NCBI RefSeq assembly: GCF_002277955.1
Contig: NZ_CP018477.1
Span: 1,116,001-1,180,000, forward strand
Origin: Thermogutta terrifontis
Lineage (GTDB): Bacteria; Planctomycetota; Planctomycetia; Pirellulales; Thermoguttaceae
Reading direction: 5' to 3'
DNA: 64,000 bases
In this document: piece after piece, positions 30,762 through 42,767 of the stretch
Position numbering within the stretch: the stretch's first letter is position 1
How the letters are laid out: the number at the start of each line of letters is the position of its first letter
Made by a program: the position numbers and the translations under genes
The notes under the pieces: generated by a model
What the model was told of the DNA's origin: nothing
The model's input: the letters and a program-made list of their open reading frames with translations, nothing else
Database searches by the model: none

Positions 30762-31376
30762 TGCATCGGACCTTTTCCAAATCGCGTGGCACTTCACCAA
30801 CTTGCTTTAGACCCTGATTTTAGGTCAGGAGGCGGAGCGTGAGAAGGATTGCCGTTCTTCTGGTTGTTTTCATTCGGTATGGGACCAGATCCAAGGAAGA
30901 GCAGTAAACTGCGGGATAGCCGGGATCGATAGAAATGCGAACCTGACAGGCGGGTCCCTCCGACGCGGAGGGGTGTGCTTGTCGTGCCCGGCGAGACCCG
31001 TTTTCGAGCAAACTTTTTTAGGTCCGAAGATACACCATACCTATGCGCCCTGTCGGGAGGGAACCGAACGGCCGTCGGTGTGCGTAAAGAGCAGGGGACG
31101 AAAAATCGGTCCGTAAATCACAGCCCGAGCTTGGGCGAGCAAGGTAGAAGCGTGAGTCCGCCGGGTGATCCAGGGCGCCTGTCCGTGCGTTCGACTCGCC
31201 CGGGGCGATAAGACACAATAGGAGAATTGGAAGGGGACGACTCGCCGATGAAGGTCCAAGCGAAATGTTTCCGGGAGGGCGCCGACTCCCCGCCATGAAC
31301 GCCAAGGGCTTGTTCGAGTCGCCACCCGGCTTTCCTCGAAAAAAGAACGAGTTTTTTACAGCGGTTTTCGTTGCAG
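30762..31376. other. Divergent intergenic region between purD and bc complex 2
   Basis: About 600 bases hold no convincing gene. The most structured part is 30951-31000, and a run of seven T residues lies at 31013-31019. Promoters for purD (minus) and the Rieske operon (plus) must lie here, but no clear hexamer pair was found. Confidence 0.4.
30951..31000. other. Nested hairpin element
   Basis: CGGGT (30951-30955) pairs with ACCCG (30996-31000). It encloses a strong hairpin, CCCTCC (30956-30961) with GGAGGG (30967-30972), around GACGC. It could be a leader structure of the Rieske transcript or an upstream RNA. Confidence 0.25.
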
Positions 31377-32036
31377 ATGGACGCAAAATTTCCGACACAT
31401 TCATCGCCCTCGAAAACTCTGCCAAGCGGCGATGAATTTCCGCCGTCTGTGCCACCGGCACGCCACGATCCGGAACTTCCGTCGCCGGCACGCCGCGAGT
31501 TCTTTGGAAGATTAGCTGGAACCATTGCCGCAGCGGGGGGGTGGAATCGTCTGCTCGTGCGGTTGCTCACGGGGCTCGGGAGTGTGCTTAGCGTTGCGGC
31601 AGGGTACGCGGGCGTGAGATTTCTTTGGCCGAGAAACCCACGGAGGCCGGGCGATTGGATCCCCATCGCACCCATCGGTCGAATTGTTCCGGATACCGTG
31701 CACACAGCGTGGTTGAATACCCTGGGCGTTTACGTAGTTCGGCAATCCGGCGAGCAGGGAGAACAGATCGTGGTGCTGAAAGCCTCGTGCACCCATCTGG
31801 GTTGCATGACGCAATGGGACGCAGGCTTGCGGCAGTTTGTCTGCCCATGTCACGGGAGTGCGTTTGACAAGGAGGGCCAGCGGCTCCGCGGTCCGGCACG
31901 GCGCGCTCTGGAACGGTGTGCTGTTAATCTGGCGGACGGAGTCCTCCTGGTGAACACAGGGCTTACTTTCCGCAAGGAAAACGGCGGCTGGGACGATCCA
32001 AGAAGTTTCGTGATGCTCGAACACGGTGTGGGTTGA
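31377..32036 (+). CDS. Rieske iron-sulfur protein of bc complex 2
   Basis: This 219-residue protein has the cluster motifs CTHLGC (near 140) and CPCHGSAFD (near 160). A long Pro/Ser-rich N-terminal cytoplasmic stretch precedes the twin-arginine segment PARREFFGRLAG and a hydrophobic helix, consistent with Tat export as an uncleaved anchor. ATG at 31377 was chosen, with a TTG two codons upstream as the alternative. The next gene, cytochrome b, starts 11 bases after the stop. Confidence 0.9.
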   Translation: MDAKFPTHSSPSKTLPSGDEFPPSVPPARHDPELPSPARREFFGRLAGTIAAAGGWNRLLVRLLTGLGSVLSVAAGYAGVRFLWPRNPRRPGDWIPIAPIGRIVPDTVHTAWLNTLGVYVVRQSGEQGEQIVVLKASCTHLGCMTQWDAGLRQFVCPCHGSAFDKEGQRLRGPARRALERCAVNLADGVLLVNTGLTFRKENGGWDDPRSFVMLEHGVG

Positions 32037-32047
32037 GGGGATCAGGG

Positions 32048-32821
32048 ATGGGTGTGTGGAGTCGAATAAGACAGTCGCGCTTTTACCGGAGTATTTTCCG
32101 GGTTCCGCTTCCCCGAACGACCCGGGAAAAAGTCCTCATGATTTTTAACACGTTTGTCCTGCACGTTCATCCGGTGGGGGTGCCCCGGTATGCCGTGCGG
32201 CTTCGCTACACATGGTGCATGGGCGGGCTGGCATTTTTTCTTTTTTTGGTGGAGATTGTCACGGGAGTGGCCTTGATGTTCTATTATCGGCCTGTCCCGG
32301 AGTATGCCTACGCCGATATTCTCGATCTCCGATATTCCGTCTATTTCGGCATTATGCGCGAGCTCCACCGGTGGGCAGGACACGCGATGGTGGTGGTCGT
32401 GATGCTCCACATGCTGCGAGTTTTTTTAACTGGGAGCTATCGCCCTCCACGCGAGTTTAACTGGGTGATAGGTGTCAGTCTTCTTATTCTTACACTTCTG
32501 CTTTCTTTTACCGGCTATCTCTTACCGTGGGACCAACTGGCCTACTGGGCGACCACGGTGGGGACGAATATGGTGGCCGCGGCACCGTTTGTCGGGTATG
32601 AAGGGCCGGGAAGCGAGCTTCTCACACTGCACGGCGAGCCGCTGATCACACCCACTTCCGACCTGCGTTATTTCTTGCTGGGCAGCGACAGGATCGGCCC
32701 CGCGGCTCTCAACAGGTTTTATATCTGGCATTGTGTGGCCCTCCCGCTGGCCATGACGTTTCTCTGCGGACTTCACTTCTGGCGCGTGCGAAAGGATGGT
32801 GGCATCAGTGGGCCACTTTGA
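32048..32821 (+). CDS. Cytochrome b6-type subunit of bc complex 2
   Basis: This 257-residue protein is the four-helix N-terminal half of cytochrome b. Both haem-ligand pairs are intact: HRWAGHAMVVVVMLH (spacing 14) and HCVALPLAMTFLCGLH (spacing 15). The LLPWDQLAYWA motif after helix C is present. It transfers electrons across the membrane between two quinone sites. Start: ATG at 32048 behind a G-rich run. The C-terminal half of cytochrome b is a separate gene 97 bases downstream, as in b6f-type complexes. Confidence 0.92.
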   Translation: MGVWSRIRQSRFYRSIFRVPLPRTTREKVLMIFNTFVLHVHPVGVPRYAVRLRYTWCMGGLAFFLFLVEIVTGVALMFYYRPVPEYAYADILDLRYSVYFGIMRELHRWAGHAMVVVVMLHMLRVFLTGSYRPPREFNWVIGVSLLILTLLLSFTGYLLPWDQLAYWATTVGTNMVAAAPFVGYEGPGSELLTLHGEPLITPTSDLRYFLLGSDRIGPAALNRFYIWHCVALPLAMTFLCGLHFWRVRKDGGISGPL

Positions 32822-32918: not shown

Positions 32919-34193
32919 ATGAAAGATCAATCATTAGCCATTCTCTATTTTGGCTCAGTTTTAGTTATCGCTGCTTGGGCGGCCATTCGGCTGGTCGGCC
33001 GTGGCGCGCGGAAATCGCAGGCGATCGAGCCGACCGTGTACGCTTTGCTGTTCCTGGCGGGTGGCATTTTTGCGAGCATGGGGCGTGCCTGGGGGCTCCC
33101 CAACTGGGCCAAACAGGTGATTGATCACTTCGTTACTCCTCCCGTTTTGACGCTTCTGGTATTTACCGGAGCTTTTGTTTTTCTGAAGGGACTCCAATCG
33201 AGATGGACGCCGCGGCTGGCCGTCCACATGGTGATCGGCCTGTGGTTGTGGTTTTTGCTTTCGCTGGAAGACAGGAACTTTGCGGCTTTGGTACTTGCTC
33301 CCGATCATGTGGCGGTGCTGCTGTTTATTGCGGCCTCTCTGGCGGGCGTTGTTTACGGATTGGGACTGGCTGCGGAAAATGATCGCCGCAGGCAGCAGAA
33401 CCAACCAGTGATGGAGGCCGAGCCTTACGAAAGGGAACGCATCTTCGTCTGGCCGGACCTGGTGTACATAGAACTTCTCGCCATGCTGGCAATGTTGGGA
33501 GTGTTGCTGGTGTGGTCGTTGCTCATGCCAGCGCCTTTGGAGTCGCCGGCCGATCCGACGTGGACGCCCAATCCCGCCAAGGCACCATGGTATTTTGTGG
33601 GGTTGCAGGAACTCCTTGTGTACTTTGATCCGTGGCTGGCGGGTGTCATGATTCCGGTGTTCATTATTCTTGGTCTGTGTTTAATTCCTTATGCGGACAC
33701 CCGCCCGAAAGAAACGGGATTCTATGGATTCCGCCAGCGGCAGTTCGCGACGAGCGTCTTTCTAAGTGGCTATATCCTATGGACAATTCTGATCGTTATA
33801 GGCACGTTCTATCGGGGGCCGGACTGGCAGTTCTATGGTCTCTATGAATCCCGGTCCATTAAAAAACCGAGCGTCCTCGAAACACGTCCGCTTTCTCACG
33901 TCATATGGAATGTAAACGTTGGCGCACATGAGGCGAAGAGCATGAATCCGTGGAGGGTTCTCCGCCGGGAAAGCCCTGGCGTGGTCCTGCTGGGAATGCT
34001 GTTTGGTGGCGTGCCGCTGATTCTGCGGATGAAATCCATTCGGCAATATGTACCGCAGTGGTCAAGGCCCACGCACTGGACCATGAGTGTGTTGCTGGCG
34101 TTTATGATTTTAATTCCTGTGAAGATGTATCTTAATTGGCTCATGGATATCAATTACATACTATGGCTACCAGAGATTGGGATTAACTTATGA
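32919..34193 (+). CDS. Long subunit-IV-like cytochrome b C-terminal protein
   Basis: This 424-residue protein carries the quinol-site motif as NPAKAPWYFVGLQELL (near 220-235), the PEWY-loop variant found in several split bacterial bc complexes. It is followed by three hydrophobic helices. Unlike plain subunit IV (about 160 residues), it has an N-terminal membrane part of roughly four extra helices (residues 1-160) and two helices near the C-terminus. A short AT-rich spacer precedes it. Confidence 0.8.
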   Translation: MKDQSLAILYFGSVLVIAAWAAIRLVGRGARKSQAIEPTVYALLFLAGGIFASMGRAWGLPNWAKQVIDHFVTPPVLTLLVFTGAFVFLKGLQSRWTPRLAVHMVIGLWLWFLLSLEDRNFAALVLAPDHVAVLLFIAASLAGVVYGLGLAAENDRRRQQNQPVMEAEPYERERIFVWPDLVYIELLAMLAMLGVLLVWSLLMPAPLESPADPTWTPNPAKAPWYFVGLQELLVYFDPWLAGVMIPVFIILGLCLIPYADTRPKETGFYGFRQRQFATSVFLSGYILWTILIVIGTFYRGPDWQFYGLYESRSIKKPSVLETRPLSHVIWNVNVGAHEAKSMNPWRVLRRESPGVVLLGMLFGGVPLILRMKSIRQYVPQWSRPTHWTMSVLLAFMILIPVKMYLNWLMDINYILWLPEIGINL

Positions 34194-34240: not shown

Positions 34241-37200
34241 ATGGCAAATCCATTAAAGCACCATTATCCCTTGGTTTATTTGCACGTTCTCTGCGTGATC
34301 TTTTGCGGAGTATTGCTTGGGCTGGTGGTTTGGGTACTCTATCGAGAACACCATCGTGAGTGGCTGCGATACCAGCGGTTGGGACAAACTGTGGCTGAGG
34401 TCGTCCATTCGGAATCGCAGCGGCTCAACCAGCAAGAGGGGAAAAACGAGTGGCTGATCCTTCCGCCGCTATCGACAAGTGGCGAAAAGGAGAGCATCCC
34501 TGGGGGAACAGGGCGTTTCAGCCTGGAACTCCGCGAGATTGTCCTCCCGGGGCTGGAGGAGAAGTTCTCGGAAAGAGCAGTCGTACGTCGCGATCGCTGC
34601 ACAACTTGCCACCTGTTTGTGGATTGGACAACTCAGGAAGGCCCAGCAATATCGGAGCTAAAGGAGGTTTCAAGAGCGGGCGGCTCGGGGAATGGTTTTC
34701 CGTGGGCCCAGCCGACCGAGTATCATGCCGCCACCCGTCCCGTGATGGAGAAAGAAAACACGATCACCCTCGCCTTGCCACTTATTCTCAAAGAAAGACA
34801 TAGTGTGGATGAAATAAAACACAACGAAAAGAGATTCTCAACAATTGCGGAAAAGCTGGGGATCCAATGGATGTCTCTTGGGCTGCTTGGCAGCGCGGAG
34901 GCTCGAGTGGCAACGATCAAACGGGGCAGCCCCGCGGAAGTGGCTGGTCTTCGGCCAGGCGATCGAATCGTCGGAGTCGGATCACGGCATGTCGCGTCGC
35001 CTCAGGAAGTGGAAGCCGAAGTGGGACGCTGCTTGGAGCTGCTTTCGCGTGATGAAAAGGCATTTTCTAACTCAACAAAATATATTTACTATCCCTCAAA
35101 CTTTGGCAGCGATAGTACAAAAGTCCCCGCTGTCAGTGTTACCATTCTCCGCGGCCTTGCGGAACCGTTTACCGGACATCCCCACCCGGATTTGTATGTC
35201 GCTGAAAACAGTTCGCATCCAGCTTCGCGATTTGGCTGCACGATTTGTCACGGAGGCGTTGGGCTGGCCACGGATGTGGTGGGGGCGGAGCATTTTCAAC
35301 AGCCGGCTGAAGTTGAAAAAATCCCCGCGTCTTTCGTCGCGTCTATTGATCCCATGCTACCTACTGTGCTCGTCGAAAGCCGATGCTTGCGGTGTCATGA
35401 AAGGGTCTTCGACCTTATCGAAACACCTCGAGAGCAGGATTCGGTGGCTTCCCAACTGGTGACAGGCCGCCGACTTGTCGAACGCTACGGATGCTATGCC
35501 TGTCACCAGTTCGGCAGTGATGGGGTTGGGACGGAGCGATTGGGGGCCGATTTGCAGCCCCCCGGTCCGGCCACGGAAGTGGCTGAGGAAATCCTTGCCT
35601 GGGAGCCGCCGCAAAATGTGGCGACAGCCGCCCGCCAGGTCCTGCAATCGGCCAGTAATTCCACGGGTGTCGAGGCGTTAAAAAAAGAACTGGAGTCCTG
35701 GCTTTCCGAGCTGTCCCGGGTCCCGGTCCTATCTCTTGACGAGCGCATCCGCCAACTGGAAATTCGCCGGCTCGCGGGAGTGCTTCGCTCTTCCCAGGCA
35801 GGGCCAGGTGGCCTGGGGAAACCCGGCCCCAGTTTGCGGTCTGTGGGCGATCGTCTTGCACGGCAGCAGTTGGAAGCCATCATCGCGGATCCCCAGGGTG
35901 TTCTGCCATCGGCAAGGATGCCCCGTTTTTTCGGCGTCAATCCATCCTTCTCCAGTGGCGAGCCTGATCAGGATGGAGTTGCGGCTGCGGAAATAGCCGG
36001 CATCGCGGAATACCTTCTGACGCGGACTCGATCGAGTGGGACGCCGACACAGGCCGGTTCTGCCGCCACGACAGGCGCAGAGAACGGCACGCCGAACGAT
36101 GCAGATTGGGGAAGGATTGTGTTCGAAACTCAGGGCTGCCTGGCCTGTCACACCCATCGAGAATTTCCCGCCGCTTCGGTGGGACCGACTCTCGGACCGG
36201 ATTTGTCCGACTTAGGGAATCGCTGGACTGGGCCGCGGGCGAGGGAATGGCTGGAGCGCTGGCTGGAGGATCCGCGGTCGCTCAATCCCGATACGCGAAT
36301 GCCTCGTCCCCAATGGCGTGAAGATTCCTGGCTGTCCATGCTAGTGCCTTCAGAATCGGGAACCGGTGAATCGCCTGGTAGCGAGGATGCGTCCGCGCGC
36401 GCCCGGCACTGGACACCCCGGTCTTTGATCCGGGCGCTGGCGAGCTTCCTGTTACAAAAAACAGAACGAGACGTTCACCCTGCCCCGCTGAATGTAGACG
36501 AAAAGCAGATCGACGCGGCAGTGACCGCTTATCTGGCGGAAGAATTCGGCCTCCCGCGGGCCCGGTTGTACAGTCAGCATGGTATTTCCGGAAAGGAATT
36601 CGAGCGGCTCAGTCCCGGATTGGCCGTGGAATTGGCTGATTTGGTGACGCCTCTATCGCGTGAGAAAAAGCTGCGTTATTTGGGACGTAAGGCCATTGCT
36701 CGATACGGCTGCTACGCGTGTCACAGTATTTCTGGGTTTGAGGGGCAATCGCCAATTGGTCCGGATCTCTCCACATTTGCCCGAAAGCCCTTGGCACTCC
36801 TGGACTTCGGTCATAGCGAGCAATTTCTGCGGCAGACGGCAGCCGGGAGCGCTCTCTATCGCGAGGCGAGCTTTCGGCCCGAACTGGCGGCACTGTTGGG
36901 GACCCGTCGCCGGGAAGGCTGGTTGTGGCTGAAACTGACGCAACCCCGGGTTTTCGATTACGGGCTGACCTTCCAAAGCCCGCTCCACCGTCTGCGGATG
37001 CCCCGGTTTCCCCTCACGCGTGACGAGCGCTGGGCCATTATGACATTCGTGCTCGGATTGGACGGATTTCAGACGCCCCCGGAGTATTCCCCCTATCAGG
37101 ATCGGCGAAGGGCGGCCCTCGCCGTCGGCAGGATGGTCATCGAACGTCACGGTTGCGACCGGTGCCACATGCTGCATCCGGAAAGGTGGACTTTGCGCTA

Positions 37201-38236
37201 TCTTACGGAAGAACCGCCTGAGCCGCCGATTGCTCCGCAGCCGGAATTGCAAGTTCAAGCACAAAACACCGTGGGCTTCAATCAAGCGGGACGAGAGCCA
37301 GTTTCATCGCCTGTCTCCGTGTTCAGTTTTGCCGTGGTCGTGGGGCGTGCGCAGCGTGATATGACAGGCCGGCTTCTGGAAGATATCGATGACTGCGATA
37401 ATCCGCTCTACTTTTTTGAACCGTGGCGACCTGTGCGAATTGGGAATTACATTTGGCCTGTGGGCCAGGCCGCCCTCCCGATCGCAAAACCGCAAATCGT
37501 TGGCATCAGACCGCAGGAGGGAGGCGAATGGGCTGCCCAGCTCTATGGTCGGCTGGCGGAGTACGTGCAGCGACTGGTGCTCAACGTGGGGCCTTCCGAG
37601 TTATGGGGGGCCGTCCCGCCGCCGCTCTGTTATGAAGGGGTGGCCGTTCAGGAAGCGTGGCTACGGGAGTTCCTCCACACGCCGGTTTCCATTCGCCCGG
37701 CTGTCCCCCTGGCGATGCCCATGTACAACTTGAATCCCCAGGAGATCGACCGTCTGGTGGGGTATTTTCAGGCTTTGCACTCTGCGGCACCGGCAGCAGA
37801 GGACTGGGGAAGGGCACGCCAGCCGCAATCCTCGGCGCAGGACCAGGCGCGGTTCCATCAACTCGAATTGGCGGAGAAACTGGTCCACGACACGAAAACG
37901 TACTGTGGTAAGTGTCATCGCCTTGCTGCTGCGGACCCGGCAAAACTCGCCATGCCAAACGAAGCCCCCGCCCTCGATGAGGTGTATCGCCGATTCCAGG
38001 TAACTTACCTCAGCGAGTGGGTGAAGAATCCCCGGGCCATCCTCCCGTACACCGCTATGCCGATCAACTTTCCGCCTGGCGGAGAACCACTTGACCGAAG
38101 TGTCTTCGATGCGTCCGCCGACCAGCAGCGCCAGGCTGTGGTGGAGCTCCTTCAGAGCTACGATCGGTATTTGCGGCAAAAACGTATTGCTTCACCGGAT
38201 GGTTCGGGCAAAGGGACCGTTGACTCGCCGCCGTGA
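34241..38236 (+). CDS. Octahaem cytochrome c with embedded PDZ domain (bc complex 2)
   Basis: This 1331-residue protein is anchored by one N-terminal helix (about 11-34). It has eight c-haem sites: CTTCH (120), CTICH (333), CLRCH (382), CYACH (418), CLACH (633), CYACH (824), CDRCH (972) and CGKCH (1222). Between the first two haems, residues about 205-265 resemble a PDZ domain (ARVATIKRGSPAEVAGLRPG, DRIVGVGS). Several DxRMPRF-type segments follow haem units, as in cytochrome c family domains. It directly follows the two cytochrome b genes and should take electrons from the Rieske protein in the periplasm. The PDZ may bind a partner's C-terminus. Confidence 0.85.
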   Translation: MANPLKHHYPLVYLHVLCVIFCGVLLGLVVWVLYREHHREWLRYQRLGQTVAEVVHSESQRLNQQEGKNEWLILPPLSTSGEKESIPGGTGRFSLELREIVLPGLEEKFSERAVVRRDRCTTCHLFVDWTTQEGPAISELKEVSRAGGSGNGFPWAQPTEYHAATRPVMEKENTITLALPLILKERHSVDEIKHNEKRFSTIAEKLGIQWMSLGLLGSAEARVATIKRGSPAEVAGLRPGDRIVGVGSRHVASPQEVEAEVGRCLELLSRDEKAFSNSTKYIYYPSNFGSDSTKVPAVSVTILRGLAEPFTGHPHPDLYVAENSSHPASRFGCTICHGGVGLATDVVGAEHFQQPAEVEKIPASFVASIDPMLPTVLVESRCLRCHERVFDLIETPREQDSVASQLVTGRRLVERYGCYACHQFGSDGVGTERLGADLQPPGPATEVAEEILAWEPPQNVATAARQVLQSASNSTGVEALKKELESWLSELSRVPVLSLDERIRQLEIRRLAGVLRSSQAGPGGLGKPGPSLRSVGDRLARQQLEAIIADPQGVLPSARMPRFFGVNPSFSSGEPDQDGVAAAEIAGIAEYLLTRTRSSGTPTQAGSAATTGAENGTPNDADWGRIVFETQGCLACHTHREFPAASVGPTLGPDLSDLGNRWTGPRAREWLERWLEDPRSLNPDTRMPRPQWREDSWLSMLVPSESGTGESPGSEDASARARHWTPRSLIRALASFLLQKTERDVHPAPLNVDEKQIDAAVTAYLAEEFGLPRARLYSQHGISGKEFERLSPGLAVELADLVTPLSREKKLRYLGRKAIARYGCYACHSISGFEGQSPIGPDLSTFARKPLALLDFGHSEQFLRQTAAGSALYREASFRPELAALLGTRRREGWLWLKLTQPRVFDYGLTFQSPLHRLRMPRFPLTRDERWAIMTFVLGLDGFQTPPEYSPYQDRRRAALAVGRMVIERHGCDRCHMLHPERWTLRYLTEEPPEPPIAPQPELQVQAQNTVGFNQAGREPVSSPVSVFSFAVVVGRAQRDMTGRLLEDIDDCDNPLYFFEPWRPVRIGNYIWPVGQAALPIAKPQIVGIRPQEGGEWAAQLYGRLAEYVQRLVLNVGPSELWGAVPPPLCYEGVAVQEAWLREFLHTPVSIRPAVPLAMPMYNLNPQEIDRLVGYFQALHSAAPAAEDWGRARQPQSSAQDQARFHQLELAEKLVHDTKTYCGKCHRLAAADPAKLAMPNEAPALDEVYRRFQVTYLSEWVKNPRAILPYTAMPINFPPGGEPLDRSVFDASADQQRQAVVELLQSYDRYLRQKRIASPDGSGKGTVDSPP

Positions 38237-38361: not shown

Positions 38362-38517
38362 ATGGACCTCGACCAGCGGGTTTTACTGTTTGAAATTTCT
38401 CGGCGGGAGATTGTCAGAACCGAGGACCTGTGGATGGCACATGCTTCCGGACAGGCAGCGCGAAGGGTTCGGCGAAGGTCGCAGCGGAACGGTGAAAGGC
38501 GATGCCATGAGGAGTGA
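38362..38517 (+). CDS. Possible small protein, low support
   Basis: This 51-codon open frame begins MDLDQRVLLFEISRREIV and ends Arg-rich. Its tail overlaps the start of the next gene by 11 bases. No ribosome-binding site is visible. It occupies most of the second half of a 270-base gap and may be chance. Confidence 0.15.
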   Translation: MDLDQRVLLFEISRREIVRTEDLWMAHASGQAARRVRRRSQRNGERRCHEE

Positions 38518-39376
38518 ATCGCGGCGAACAGCGGCAAAACGTACCGTCGATGCGCGGAAGTTGATTTCCCGGTCGAGATATCGGCGAGAATTCCTGAAAA
38601 AGCTAGCGGCCCTGGGTACGCTCTTAAGCGTTCCACGACCCCTCGTTTCTTCCCTTGTGCTGAGCGAGGAAGGCGGGCAACTGGGGGAGTTGACCGGAAG
38701 ATTCATCTACGTGGGAACACCCCCGGAACGAAAGAAACTCAAAGTCGATAAAGACGTGGACTGTTGCGGCAAGTACGACATCCGGGACGAATCGCTGTTG
38801 GTCGGGCCAGACGGTGAGCTGGCCAACGTTTATGTATATCTGCGCAGCCGTGGCGTTCCTGTGCCTCCCGGACTGGCAGAAAAGTTTCCCAAACGCGTCA
38901 CTTTGGATAATCGGGACTGCATTTTCAAACCGCATTGTTTGGCAATTTGGTATACAGTTCAGGAATTCTATATTGTCAATTCCGATCCAATCGCGCAAAA
39001 CGTAGCGTTCACCCCGTTGGGAGACCTGCCGGCGAACATCATTCTGGCCCCAGCCCCTGGCGAAAAGACCGACGCCACGTGGCGATTTCACCGCACCCAA
39101 ACAGAGCCCGTCCACATCGTGTGCAATTATCATCCCTGGGAAAGTGCCTATATTCTTCCCCGCGACAACCCCTATTTTGCCATCAGCGGAAGCGACGGAA
39201 CATTTCGCATTCCGTACCTTCCACCGGGCGAATGGGAATTTCAGCTTTGGCAGGAACGTGTCCGGCAGCTGGAATTACCCGGCTATCCGCGGGGGCGCTT
39301 CACGGTGACGGTCAAGCCCGGCCTGAACGACCTGGGAACAATTCGCGTCAGCCCCGCATCGCTCAAGGTAACCTGA
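38507..39376 (+). CDS. Tat-exported cupredoxin-like protein
   Basis: This 289-residue protein has a clear twin-arginine signal (YRREFLKKLAALG, about 23-35). The body resembles the cupredoxin-like proteins that accompany multihaem cytochromes in planctomycetes: CIFKPHCLA, NSDPIAQNVAF, CNYHPWESAYI and NPYFAISGSDGTFRIPYLPP. In related proteins I expect HN and HPWM, where the type-1 copper histidine and methionine sit; here they read QN and HPWE, leaving only Cys and His. A carboxypeptidase-regulatory-like beta segment ends the protein. Start: ATG at 38507 after AAAGG; the upstream frame is unlikely. Confidence 0.65.
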   Translation: MRSESRRTAAKRTVDARKLISRSRYRREFLKKLAALGTLLSVPRPLVSSLVLSEEGGQLGELTGRFIYVGTPPERKKLKVDKDVDCCGKYDIRDESLLVGPDGELANVYVYLRSRGVPVPPGLAEKFPKRVTLDNRDCIFKPHCLAIWYTVQEFYIVNSDPIAQNVAFTPLGDLPANIILAPAPGEKTDATWRFHRTQTEPVHIVCNYHPWESAYILPRDNPYFAISGSDGTFRIPYLPPGEWEFQLWQERVRQLELPGYPRGRFTVTVKPGLNDLGTIRVSPASLKVT

Positions 39377-39426
39377 CCTGTCCTGCGTGGACTAACTAAT
39401 TGCGTGAATTTGTTAACTTCTACGAC

Positions 39427-40650
39427 ATGAGATTGGCACGACATGTTCTAACCTTATTCAATATGATGTTCGTTGACCCCGCAGTACCTCAGACCATAGC
39501 ACCGCATCGCACAGCGGCGATTGACCGGAAGCCCGGTGCCGTCGTGGTGTTACTTATAGTATTACTGAGCTTGGCGGGCTGTGGTAAGTCGCGACCCGTG
39601 GAGTTCCGCTTAAATACCGAGGGGCGTGATCCTGCCTCTATCTCACCCGCCCAGCGCGAGGCGATTGTCGGCATGCTCACGGATCTTTTCGGAACGCCTG
39701 ATGATCCGCGTGTTCCACCGGGTGTCAATCTCGATTTGGAGCTTCTGCGGCGTGCTGCGGGACCAACCCGTCGCGATTTCAGTGGCGTGGAACGAGGACT
39801 CTATCGCAAGCATTGTGCCGTGTGTCACGGAATTTCTGGAGACGGAGCAGGGCCGATCGCGGCAATGCTCAATCCCTATCCCCGCGACTACCGCTATGGC
39901 GTTTTCAAGTACACATCCACTGTGCTGGGGGCCAAGCCTACTCGTCAGGACCTCGAGCGGACCATCCGCCGTGGAATTCCTGGGACGGGAATGCCATCGT
40001 TTGCTCCTCTTCCCGATGAAGATATTCAGGCACTTATTGAATATGTCCAGTATCTTTCTATCCGCGGAGAAACTGAGCTCTACCTGCTGCGATTGGTTGT
40101 GGATGAGAACGAATTGCTCCCGCTCAGCAAGCAAAGTGTCATCGATGAAGGGGTGCTCCCGGTGGCCGAAGCATGGGAAGCACCCGAAAAAGATCCTGAG
40201 CATTGGGTGGTCCGGCCACAACGGCCTCAGCTCGACGAGGCTCAGCTCAAGGCGGCTATTGAGCGCGGAAAGCTCGTTTATCAGGAGCCACGCTCCCAGT
40301 GCGTCAAGTGCCATGGCCCGGAGGGTCGCGGCGATGGTGAACAGACCGATCTGTACGACGATTGGAACAAACCGAAAAAGGGTGTCACCGAGGAGCAAAC
40401 GCGGCAACTGTCACGCTGGTTTTCTCTGCCGTTGCAGCAACTGAAGCCTCGCAATTTTCAGGAGGGGATTTTCCACGGAGGTGGCCGTCCCGAGGATATC
40501 TATCTCAGAATCTATGTAGGAATCAAAGGCACGCCGATGCCTGCCATGGGGCCGTCCCCCGGACAGCCCGGCATTCTTACGCCCGAAGAAATCTGGGACC
40601 TTACCTTCTATGTTCTTTCTTTAGCGCGAAAGAATGACATTAAAAAATAG
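39427..40650 (+). CDS. Dihaem cytochrome c lipoprotein
   Basis: This 407-residue protein has a lipobox LLSLAGC near residue 54, so it is probably lipid-anchored in the periplasm. Two c-haem sites are CAVCH (near 133) and CVKCH (near 296), each in a class I cytochrome fold with GMPSF or TPMPAMG methionine-ligand segments downstream. It likely passes electrons from bc complex 2 to an oxidase encoded elsewhere. The ATG at 39427 was chosen; a TTG nine codons earlier and a later ATG are alternatives. Confidence 0.82.
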   Translation: MRLARHVLTLFNMMFVDPAVPQTIAPHRTAAIDRKPGAVVVLLIVLLSLAGCGKSRPVEFRLNTEGRDPASISPAQREAIVGMLTDLFGTPDDPRVPPGVNLDLELLRRAAGPTRRDFSGVERGLYRKHCAVCHGISGDGAGPIAAMLNPYPRDYRYGVFKYTSTVLGAKPTRQDLERTIRRGIPGTGMPSFAPLPDEDIQALIEYVQYLSIRGETELYLLRLVVDENELLPLSKQSVIDEGVLPVAEAWEAPEKDPEHWVVRPQRPQLDEAQLKAAIERGKLVYQEPRSQCVKCHGPEGRGDGEQTDLYDDWNKPKKGVTEEQTRQLSRWFSLPLQQLKPRNFQEGIFHGGGRPEDIYLRIYVGIKGTPMPAMGPSPGQPGILTPEEIWDLTFYVLSLARKNDIKK

Positions 40651-40659
40651 ACCCCCATC

Positions 40660-41685
40660 GTGAAAATAAATTTGGATAGTTGTATGGAGCGTGGTGGTTC
40701 GGGTGACAGAGCGACTGAAAGAGGAACTCGCTGGGCCCACCGGCTGGCCTGGGTCTTGTGGGCTGTTACCTTTCCGCTGATCTGGATGGGCGGATTCGTC
40801 ACCACATACGACGCCGGTATGGCGGTTCCCGACTGGCCAAATACCTACGGATATAACCTTTTCCTCTATCCCATAGAAAGCTGGCTGAAAACCTGGGATA
40901 TCTTCCTGGAACACAGTCATCGTCTGATTGCCTCCGCGGCCGGGTTTGTGTCCATCGCGCTGATGGTTGCGCTGTGGAGGACGGGCTCCGCACGCTTCCG
41001 GCGACTGGGTGTCGTGGTCTTCATCCTGGTGTGCATGCAGGGAGTAATAGGGGGCCTCCGGGTGCTGGGACAGGAGCTTCTTCTGGCAAATCTGCACGGA
41101 TGTATCGCGCCACTTTTTTTCGGCCTTGTCACGGGAGTGGTGGTCATCACGGGGCGTGCGATCGTAGGGTCAGATCAAGCGATACGGTACGCCCAACAGT
41201 CACTTTTTCGTAGTGTGGCAGGGTGGCGATTCGTCCTCGTGGCGACTATATATACCCAGATCGTCGTTGGTGCCCAACTCCGCCACCTTCCTCCCACTCT
41301 GTCGCCAGGTTGGGCATTTTTGTGGACGATTGTTCATTTAATCGTGGCCGGTCTTATTGGTGTGTTCCTTGGCATCGTATGGTGGCGCGAATGTCGTGAG
41401 CACCCCTCCCAGTTATTCTGGCTGAAGATTTTAAGTGGAATTTACGCAATACAGCTTACGCTTGGCTTATTCACATGGGTGGTCAATTATAATTTCCCCA
41501 TCTGGTTTCTCGATTATTTTCTCGCTATTTCCTATACCGTCGTGAAAGGAGGAGCGGCACAGGCTCTCGTCACAACAGCACACACCGCGACGGGATCCCT
41601 GTTGCTGGCCGCCGGAGTGGCCAGCTGGCTGACAGCCGCCATGAATCCAGGCTCGCAGAACCTGCGAATGCATCAACCGGCGTGA
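40660..41685 (+). CDS. ctaA: Haem A synthase
   Basis: This 341-residue membrane protein has about eight helices. It oxidises the C8 methyl of haem O to a formyl group. The catalytic EHSHRLIAS segment (near residue 87) and further histidines in NLHG, IVHLIVAG and TTAHTATG match the two haem-ligand pairs of CtaA/Cox15. GTG at 40660 gives 341 residues; ATG at 40684 is a good alternative. It is followed by ctaB, so haem A is needed by an aa3- or caa3-type oxidase outside the window. Confidence 0.9.
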   Translation: MKINLDSCMERGGSGDRATERGTRWAHRLAWVLWAVTFPLIWMGGFVTTYDAGMAVPDWPNTYGYNLFLYPIESWLKTWDIFLEHSHRLIASAAGFVSIALMVALWRTGSARFRRLGVVVFILVCMQGVIGGLRVLGQELLLANLHGCIAPLFFGLVTGVVVITGRAIVGSDQAIRYAQQSLFRSVAGWRFVLVATIYTQIVVGAQLRHLPPTLSPGWAFLWTIVHLIVAGLIGVFLGIVWWRECREHPSQLFWLKILSGIYAIQLTLGLFTWVVNYNFPIWFLDYFLAISYTVVKGGAAQALVTTAHTATGSLLLAAGVASWLTAAMNPGSQNLRMHQPA

Positions 41686-41807
41686 GATCACAATCGAGGC
41701 AGACTTGGGTGACAATGAGTTTGTCGAATGTGAGAGATAATACAATGAGTAAAAAGAGCCAATCACACTTCATACAGGTAACACATCCACAATAAGTGGT
41801 GAGTAAC

Positions 41808-42767
41808 ATGAGTAATCCTGGAGAACGACTAGCAAATACCGTTGTCGCAATGGGGGACAAAAGCCGGGAGCTTGCCCGGCAGAACTCCGCTTCGGAAGTG
41901 AGCATCGTGGGGTGGCTGCGGGAATGGGGAGCTTTCCTGCGGGTCCGCATCCTTTTCAGCATCGTGGCCACCATGGTCACAGGAGCTGCGCTGGCCGCGG
42001 AGTCCGCTGCAGTTGATGGAACAATTGCGGCCAAGCTGGTGTTTTTGATTGGCATCATCGTTGGGGCCGTCATTTTAAACCAGGTCATCGAAAGCGAGTC
42101 AGACCGATTGATGCCCCGCACCTCCCGCCGACCTATTCCTGCGGGAAGAATGAGGCGAAGCTGGGCCGCGGTTGCGGGAGCCGTGCTGACGCTGGCGGGC
42201 ACATTGGGGTTGTTGGCTTCAGGCGATATTATGCTGACTGTGCTTGGTCTGGCCGCCTGGGCACTCTATGTGGCTATTTACACGCCTCTCAAAAAGAAAA
42301 CGAGCTGGCAAACACCGATTGGAGCGGTCGTGGGAGCGGCGCCGGTCGTTTTGGGGGCGGGCTTGGTGGATGGCTATCACGTCCCCCAGGTGTGGACACT
42401 CTTTACACTCATTTTTTTCTGGCAGTTTCCCCACGCGATGGCGATTGCCACACTGTATCGGGATCAATTCTCGCAGGCCGGTATTCAGGTCGCTCCGGTT
42501 GCCGATCCCAGTGGTCGCCTGATGCGTCTTTATACCCTCGCCGGCCTGGCAGGATTACAACTGTGCGTCATTGGATCGGTGATTTGGGGAGGAATCAACC
42601 CGCTGATGGCTGGCCTTCTGACTATCGGGACAGTCTATTTAACTTTGCCGACCCTGACGTTTCTCCGAGACCCAAACCAGTCCAGCGGTCGTCGGCTTAT
42701 GCGGCACACGCTTGTCTACCTGTTCCTTTTAATCCTCGCTTTCGCCGTATTTCGGTGGTTCCATTAA
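41808..42767 (+). CDS. ctaB: Protohaem IX farnesyltransferase (haem O synthase)
   Basis: This 319-residue UbiA-type prenyltransferase attaches farnesyl to haem B. The first metal-binding motif reads NQVIESESDRLMPRTSRRP, where the family usually has NxxxDxDxD, so two aspartates are replaced by glutamates. The second motif includes YTPLKKKTSWQTPIGAVVGA. Seven to nine membrane helices are evident. ATG at 41808 was chosen with GGTGAG upstream; GTG codons 9 and 12 bases earlier are possible. Confidence 0.92.
   Translation: MSNPGERLANTVVAMGDKSRELARQNSASEVSIVGWLREWGAFLRVRILFSIVATMVTGAALAAESAAVDGTIAAKLVFLIGIIVGAVILNQVIESESDRLMPRTSRRPIPAGRMRRSWAAVAGAVLTLAGTLGLLASGDIMLTVLGLAAWALYVAIYTPLKKKTSWQTPIGAVVGAAPVVLGAGLVDGYHVPQVWTLFTLIFFWQFPHAMAIATLYRDQFSQAGIQVAPVADPSGRLMRLYTLAGLAGLQLCVIGSVIWGGINPLMAGLLTIGTVYLTLPTLTFLRDPNQSSGRRLMRHTLVYLFLLILAFAVFRWFH

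Follow-up and report, generated by a model that had tools for sequence, protein, structure and literature searches.

PDZ domains bind C-terminal tails, and their signature is an X-Phi-G-Phi carboxylate-binding loop; the HtrA-type PDZ domains of bacteria are circularly permuted. A census of 7,852 microbial PDZ proteins places the bacterial domains mainly in proteases and in the stress response, and a term search of its main text found neither "cytochrome" nor "heme" (PMC6411480). In the magnetosome proteins MamP and MamE, as described in excerpts of PMC3971196, a PDZ domain and c-type haem motifs share one polypeptide. A search of titles and abstract openings in the open-licence literature returned no report of a PDZ domain in a Rieske/cytochrome b complex.

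The locus described here lies in a stretch of 64,000 nucleotides (the window) from the hot-spring planctomycete Thermogutta terrifontis. It encodes an octahaem cytochrome c with a PDZ domain set between haem 1 and haem 2. With a probability of about 0.97, this segment is a true PDZ domain and an insertion at the level of the host's order.

The octahaem cytochrome and its PDZ domain

The cytochrome, of 1331 aa, is encoded on the plus strand at 34241–38236 and matched Cytochrom_C (PF00034, E 6.1e-21). Its eight CxxCH motifs have their first cysteines at residues 120, 333, 382, 418, 633, 824, 972 and 1222, all invariant in alignment A1; haem 1 (C120) is encoded at 34598–34612 and haem 2 (C333) at 35237–35251, both on the plus strand. 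A membrane anchor was recognised by eye at the N-terminus, at about residues 10–34. The part before haem 1 is about 170–290 aa longer, and coiled-coil-like by eye, in other full-length aligned relatives of the order: the haem 1 cysteine stands at 116–120 in Thermogutta and its close kin G002 and G003, and at 291–405 in the other full-length relatives.

The PDZ domain covers residues 170–307 approximately, from beta1 to beta6 (34748–35161, plus strand; residues 73–210 of the model plus an offset of 97). In the whole protein, the Pfam families PDZ_6 (E 1.1e-8, 35.1 bits against a cut-off of 27) and PDZ (E 4.2e-5, 24.3 bits against 23.2) scored above their cut-offs and PDZ_2 (23.3 bits against 27) below it, with all three matches inside the core, residues 206–262; the 137-aa PDZ piece on its own matched PDZ_6 at E 4.2e-10. 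An AlphaFold model of residues 98–439, built from 78 input sequences, had a mean pLDDT of 65, being poor in the haem parts, which were modelled without haem, and reached 85–95 in ten-residue blocks over the PDZ core (model residues 101–170). Model residues 73–209 aligned with Scribble PDZ1 in VIA-align 2 with a Z-score of 9.8 over 87 residues (rmsd 2.2). Foldseek returned no match to the window model at E ≤0.001, and its best match, at 1.9e-3, was a PDZ domain. The isolated PDZ domain of a relative (L052) gave a model with a mean pLDDT of 87, a Z-score of 11.0 to PDZ structures (rmsd 2.0, 85 residues) and 26 Foldseek matches at E ≤0.001. Among 79 haem 1–haem 2 segments scanned at E ≤0.01, PDZ_2 was found in 78 and PDZ_6 in 76.

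A chance profile match to a segment of some other nature could be read from the PDZ_2 score under its cut-off and from the lack of Foldseek matches at E ≤0.001 for the window domain. This source of the PDZ call was rejected, and is hardly credible, since two PDZ families exceed their cut-offs in the window protein, at least 78 of the 79 segments carry a PDZ family at E ≤0.01, and the two models match PDZ structures with Z-scores of 9.8 and 11.0.

A preliminary description had recognised a PDZ domain in an octahaem cytochrome, between haem 1 (120) and haem 2 (333), and had proposed a profile search and a structure prediction of this region. Both agreed with it, the former by PDZ_6 and PDZ above cut-off and the latter by a confident PDZ core that matches PDZ structures; the CxxCH positions confirm the eight haems and the place of the domain. 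The extent that it gave, 34853–35155 with residues read as about 205–265, is too short for the full domain, because beta1 lies at about residues 173–180, upstream of that start.

In the L052 model the strand order is beta1-beta2-beta3-alpha1-beta4-beta5-alpha2-beta6, with a strand preceding the carboxylate-binding loop, and the domain matches animal PDZ structures over its whole length. As a lead, the predicted topology would be the order of animal PDZ domains; no HtrA-type chain was present among the 50 rows listed in the VIA-align comparison. Compared with L052, the Thermogutta domain has about 21 extra residues after helix alpha2 and about 6 before strand beta6. In family f16 (L177–L181), about 40 aa extra were observed inside the PDZ domain, between helix alpha1 and the GD motif.

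Distribution and evolutionary history

The PDZ insertion is typical of the host's order. A search of 40 genomes, including that of Thermogutta, gave matches in 26; a single-protein query against the genome contigs gave none. The domain was present in all 19 aligned orthologues that are readable across haems 1 and 2 (the window and 18 relatives). Of 17 full-length proteins scanned with Pfam at E ≤0.01, 14 matched PDZ_6 and 14 matched PDZ_2. The spacing between haems 1 and 2 was at least 150 aa in 78/78 parsed genome loci, a sample biased by the PDZ-containing query; L130 and L131 are absent from these loci, and L063 was left out of alignment A5 (X in its sequence).

A total of 296 genomes of the order were examined, of which 167 matched at E 1e-20 and 129 did not. 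Among the 167, the PDZ domain was reached in 159, was missing in six, and two were cut off. All of the 150 genomes listed with the place of the match reach into the PDZ domain (approximately profile positions 40–150), 135 of them beginning at profile position 9 or earlier and 15 at 46–119, still inside the domain. Sixteen more genomes, read singly, comprised nine with PDZ, six without and one (G508) truncated where its contig ends; the second cut-off genome, G038, has a match that begins at haem 2 and is uninformative on the PDZ domain. The members without PDZ (G333, G378, G407, G411, G428 and G556) all belong to the window's family. An oddity of one species was rejected by these counts (19/19 aligned, 78/78 parsed and 159/167 matching order genomes).

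Outside the order, 294 genomes of the phylum were searched with a profile from haem 1 to haem 4, PDZ included. Carriers of the domain would have been favoured by such a profile, yet the 29 best matches from other orders, among the matches listed, all begin at profile positions 141–153, after the PDZ domain. None of these 29 loci contained a PDZ domain, as judged from haem 1–2 spacings of 42–113 aa and from reading; likewise G148, outside the order, has a spacing of 100 and showed no PDZ domain on reading. Ten PDZ-less pieces, four from the window's family and six from other orders, gave no PDZ family in Pfam at E ≤0.1 (10/10). The haem segments on either side of the domain are conserved whether it is present or not. 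The combination of PDZ and haems, previously described as unusual, is so across the phylum and not within the order.

In G120, of another order, the spacing is 247 (L212:7032–7757) and the insert, of about 200 aa, is not PDZ-like on reading; to judge from this insert, the haem 1–2 loop may be particularly prone to taking up domains.

A tree was built from the sequence downstream of the PDZ domain with 50 rows, window included; G333 was not among them, nor were 20 distant outgroup rows. The rows of the order all fell into one clade (support 100/100), within which the five PDZ-less rows of the family were nested. The PDZ label changes five times on the best tree, twice across supported branches. 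With the AU test, a single clade of all PDZ rows, that is, no loss inside the order, was rejected (p-AU 0.00015), and a single clade of the PDZ-less family rows, equivalent to a single loss, was not rejected (p 0.105). The tree alone cannot set the direction of change; the clade structure together with the AU tests is read most simply as PDZ having been gained once, at the base of the order, and lost one or more times within it, regain being a less simple alternative. An ancient planctomycete feature lost elsewhere was set aside as less parsimonious, with 29/29 of the listed loci from other orders lacking PDZ.

Gene cluster, binding groove and candidate ligands

The octahaem gene lies downstream of three genes, as expected from the bc-type cluster recognised earlier, all on the plus strand: a Rieske iron-sulfur protein (31371–32036; PF00355, E 2.3e-10), cytochrome b6, PetB/ExtP-like (32033–32821; PF00033, E 8.3e-39), whose real start is probably the ATG at 32048, and subunit IV, PetD/ExtQ-like (32919–34193; PF00032, E 3.5e-5), with extra membrane helices by eye and the C-terminus ...EIGINL. 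It is followed on the same strand by a protein read by eye as cupredoxin-like (38390–39376), with no Pfam family above cut-off and no PDB sequence relative at E ≤1, by a cytochrome c with two CxxCH (39400–40650; PF00034, E 3.3e-21), both kept in the cluster, by a CtaA/COX15-like haem A synthase (40660–41685; PF02628, E 2e-12) and by a member of the UbiA family, probably the haem O synthase CtaB (41796–42767; PF01040, E 4.5e-35). Most PDZ-bearing loci compared (L082 into L089 left out) also have genes for Rieske, b6 and subunit IV, as do 9/9 outgroup loci (L168–L176), where the octahaem genes are without PDZ. From the operon, the octahaem protein would be the c subunit of a complex shared with the products of the Rieske/cytochrome b cluster.

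In L199–L201 (G349, G358 and G415) the PDZ octahaem genes have no Rieske, b6 or subunit IV homologue inside 17–18 kb; in these genomes the Rieske match is found on a separate contig or at a distance of about 35 kb. At about 1.513–1.522 Mb (L237) the Thermogutta genome has a second Rieske/cytochrome b cluster. It includes a heptahaem cytochrome and adjoins genes for a molybdopterin oxidoreductase and for a 4Fe-4S protein. According to excerpts of PMC5673643, the published complex III of Thermogutta is THTE_1510–1512, beside narGHI, and the second cluster is probably this complex; its layout fits, and thus the complex of the window seems other than the published one.

The carboxylate-binding loop of the window domain is K-L-G-I, residues 205–208 (34853–34864, plus strand). 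Over the 79 sequences, the Phi-G-Phi positions of the loop are Y, F or L in 79/79, G in 79/79 (G207 of the window) and L, F, I or M in 78/79; the beta2 position after the loop is hydrophobic in all 79, and helix alpha2 has A or V in 74 and L in 74. Since the groove residues are kept, the domain probably still binds a C-terminal peptide, as judged from conservation. The residue taken as alphaB1 is Arg in 42/79 and Pro in the window; with Arg prevailing, this position does not point clearly to a hydrophobic residue at P-2.

Loss of peptide binding, with the PDZ domain left as a structural spacer or a dimerisation insert, would agree with its being dispensable in at least one lineage, with a haem 1–2 loop that seems tolerant, G120 having an insert of about 200 aa of another kind, and with MamP, whose PDZ domains stabilise the MamP dimer according to excerpts of PMC3971196. 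Against it, the groove-lining residues rank among the most conserved positions in the 79 sequences, and we consider it rather unlikely.

Lying between haems, the domain would sit on the outer (p) side. If peptide binding is kept, its likeliest role would be to clip the complex together during assembly by fixing a C-terminal tail of one of the subunits close to haem 1, which would be the entry point for electrons from the Rieske head. Such a clip is quite possible, at somewhat less than even odds, and a ligand within the complex itself has the same odds. Across the order, the favoured ligand would be the Rieske tail and the alternative the tail of subunit IV.

In PDZ-bearing loci, 76 distinct Rieske tails, excluding those of the window and of its nearest relative G001, have V or A at P0 in 70 and V or I at P-2 in 71, and 70 end exactly nine residues past a conserved W. 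The 20 tails of PDZ-less loci have V or A at P0 in 14 (A in 8, V in 6), V or I at P-2 in 3, and the end at nine residues past W in 4. Thus, a V or A end alone is common also without PDZ; the tail as a whole keeps one hydrophobic motif throughout most PDZ-bearing loci and differs from locus to locus where the PDZ is missing. The motif is broken in Thermogutta itself, where the Rieske protein ends in ...SFVMLEHGVG, and in G001 (...SFVRLDESVG); G358 and G415, PDZ-bearing genomes of the family as well, likewise lack it. Four of the five PDZ-less family genomes with a Rieske match also lack it (G428, G556, G333 and G407, the last with a stop inside its Rieske match), and G378 keeps it.

In a 52-row test with the strict Rieske motif, 21/29 PDZ rows and 3/23 PDZ-less rows carried it. 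On supported branches there are two independent contrasts between motif and PDZ, with 1.4 concordant on average and about 0 opposed, so few that significance is unreachable; outside these two, the split of the Rieske tails is that of one clade against the rest. The link between Rieske tail and PDZ domain is weakened by the broken motif in Thermogutta and by the few independent events. The Rieske tail as the specific ligand is a doubtful candidate, and the lead of an own-complex tail is weak for Thermogutta itself. More speculatively still, the PDZ domain between haems 1 and 2 might leash the mobile Rieske head by its C-terminus in most of the order; if true, a peptide-recognition module would guide how electrons are delivered within an energy-transducing complex. 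The tails of subunit IV end in F in 73/86 PDZ loci and in I or V in 19/23 PDZ-less loci, and are hydrophobic both with PDZ (86/86) and without (23/23).

A partner docked from outside the complex would be an oxidase, a small electron carrier of the c-type or copper kind, or a factor of cytochrome maturation or proteolysis. Of these, the oxidase, the c-type carrier and a protease of maturation had been suggested earlier, and nothing was found in their support, the lead being instead a tail of the complex itself, that of Rieske or subunit IV. PDZ domains in general do bind C-terminal tails, the cluster includes the two-CxxCH cytochrome c, the cupredoxin-like gene and ctaA/ctaB, and in L113 a cupredoxin-like protein is fused to the octahaem cytochrome. 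However, in the subset of PDZ-bearing loci examined, the tails of the two-CxxCH cytochrome c and of the cupredoxin-like protein vary in length and end residue, with no conserved motif, and relatives of both genes also lie next to the octahaem gene without PDZ in L168 and L169. Such a partner is improbable.

The fusion in L113 (7092–12716) is a PDZ octahaem cytochrome of 1875 aa with a C-terminal homologue of the 38390–39376 protein. In the fused part, C-x2-H-x2-M occurs as CNIHPWM and could mark the copper site of a cupredoxin; in the window copy this motif looks altered (CNYHPWE).

Comparison with known systems

MamP and MamE differ from the window protein in being small two-haem magnetochromes of iron biomineralisation. 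A MamE homologue was rejected (full-length model 16.1 bits, cut-off 800, match over the PDZ part alone), as was an HtrA/DegP protease (degP model 20.5 bits, cut-off 416, match over PDZ alone); no protease family was present among the Pfam matches of the octahaem protein to E 1. The complexes of anammox planctomycetes, likened here by description, share Rieske, cytochrome b and multihaem c components; they differ, by description alone, in that their titles and abstracts mention no PDZ domain. Compared with the selenite/tellurite-reduction cytochromes ExtP, ExtQ and ExtS of NCBIfam, b6 scored 260 bits with ExtP (cut-off 290), subunit IV 58 bits with ExtQ (cut-off 150) and the C-terminus of the octahaem protein 51 bits with ExtS (cut-off 100), all under the equivalog cut-offs, and the c subunit of the window is much larger and carries a PDZ domain.

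In most of an order, a respiratory cytochrome has taken in a PDZ domain, and the natural PDZ-less versions allow comparison, in a testable case of complexes gaining docking modules. With the PDZ superfamily (PF17820, PF00595 and PF13180) the domain shares profile, fold, GD motif, carboxylate loop and, in the model, strand order. It differs in having a haem on either side within a multihaem cytochrome, in a long beta1–beta2 linker, in the Thermogutta inserts around helix alpha2 and beta6, and in the inner insert of family f16.
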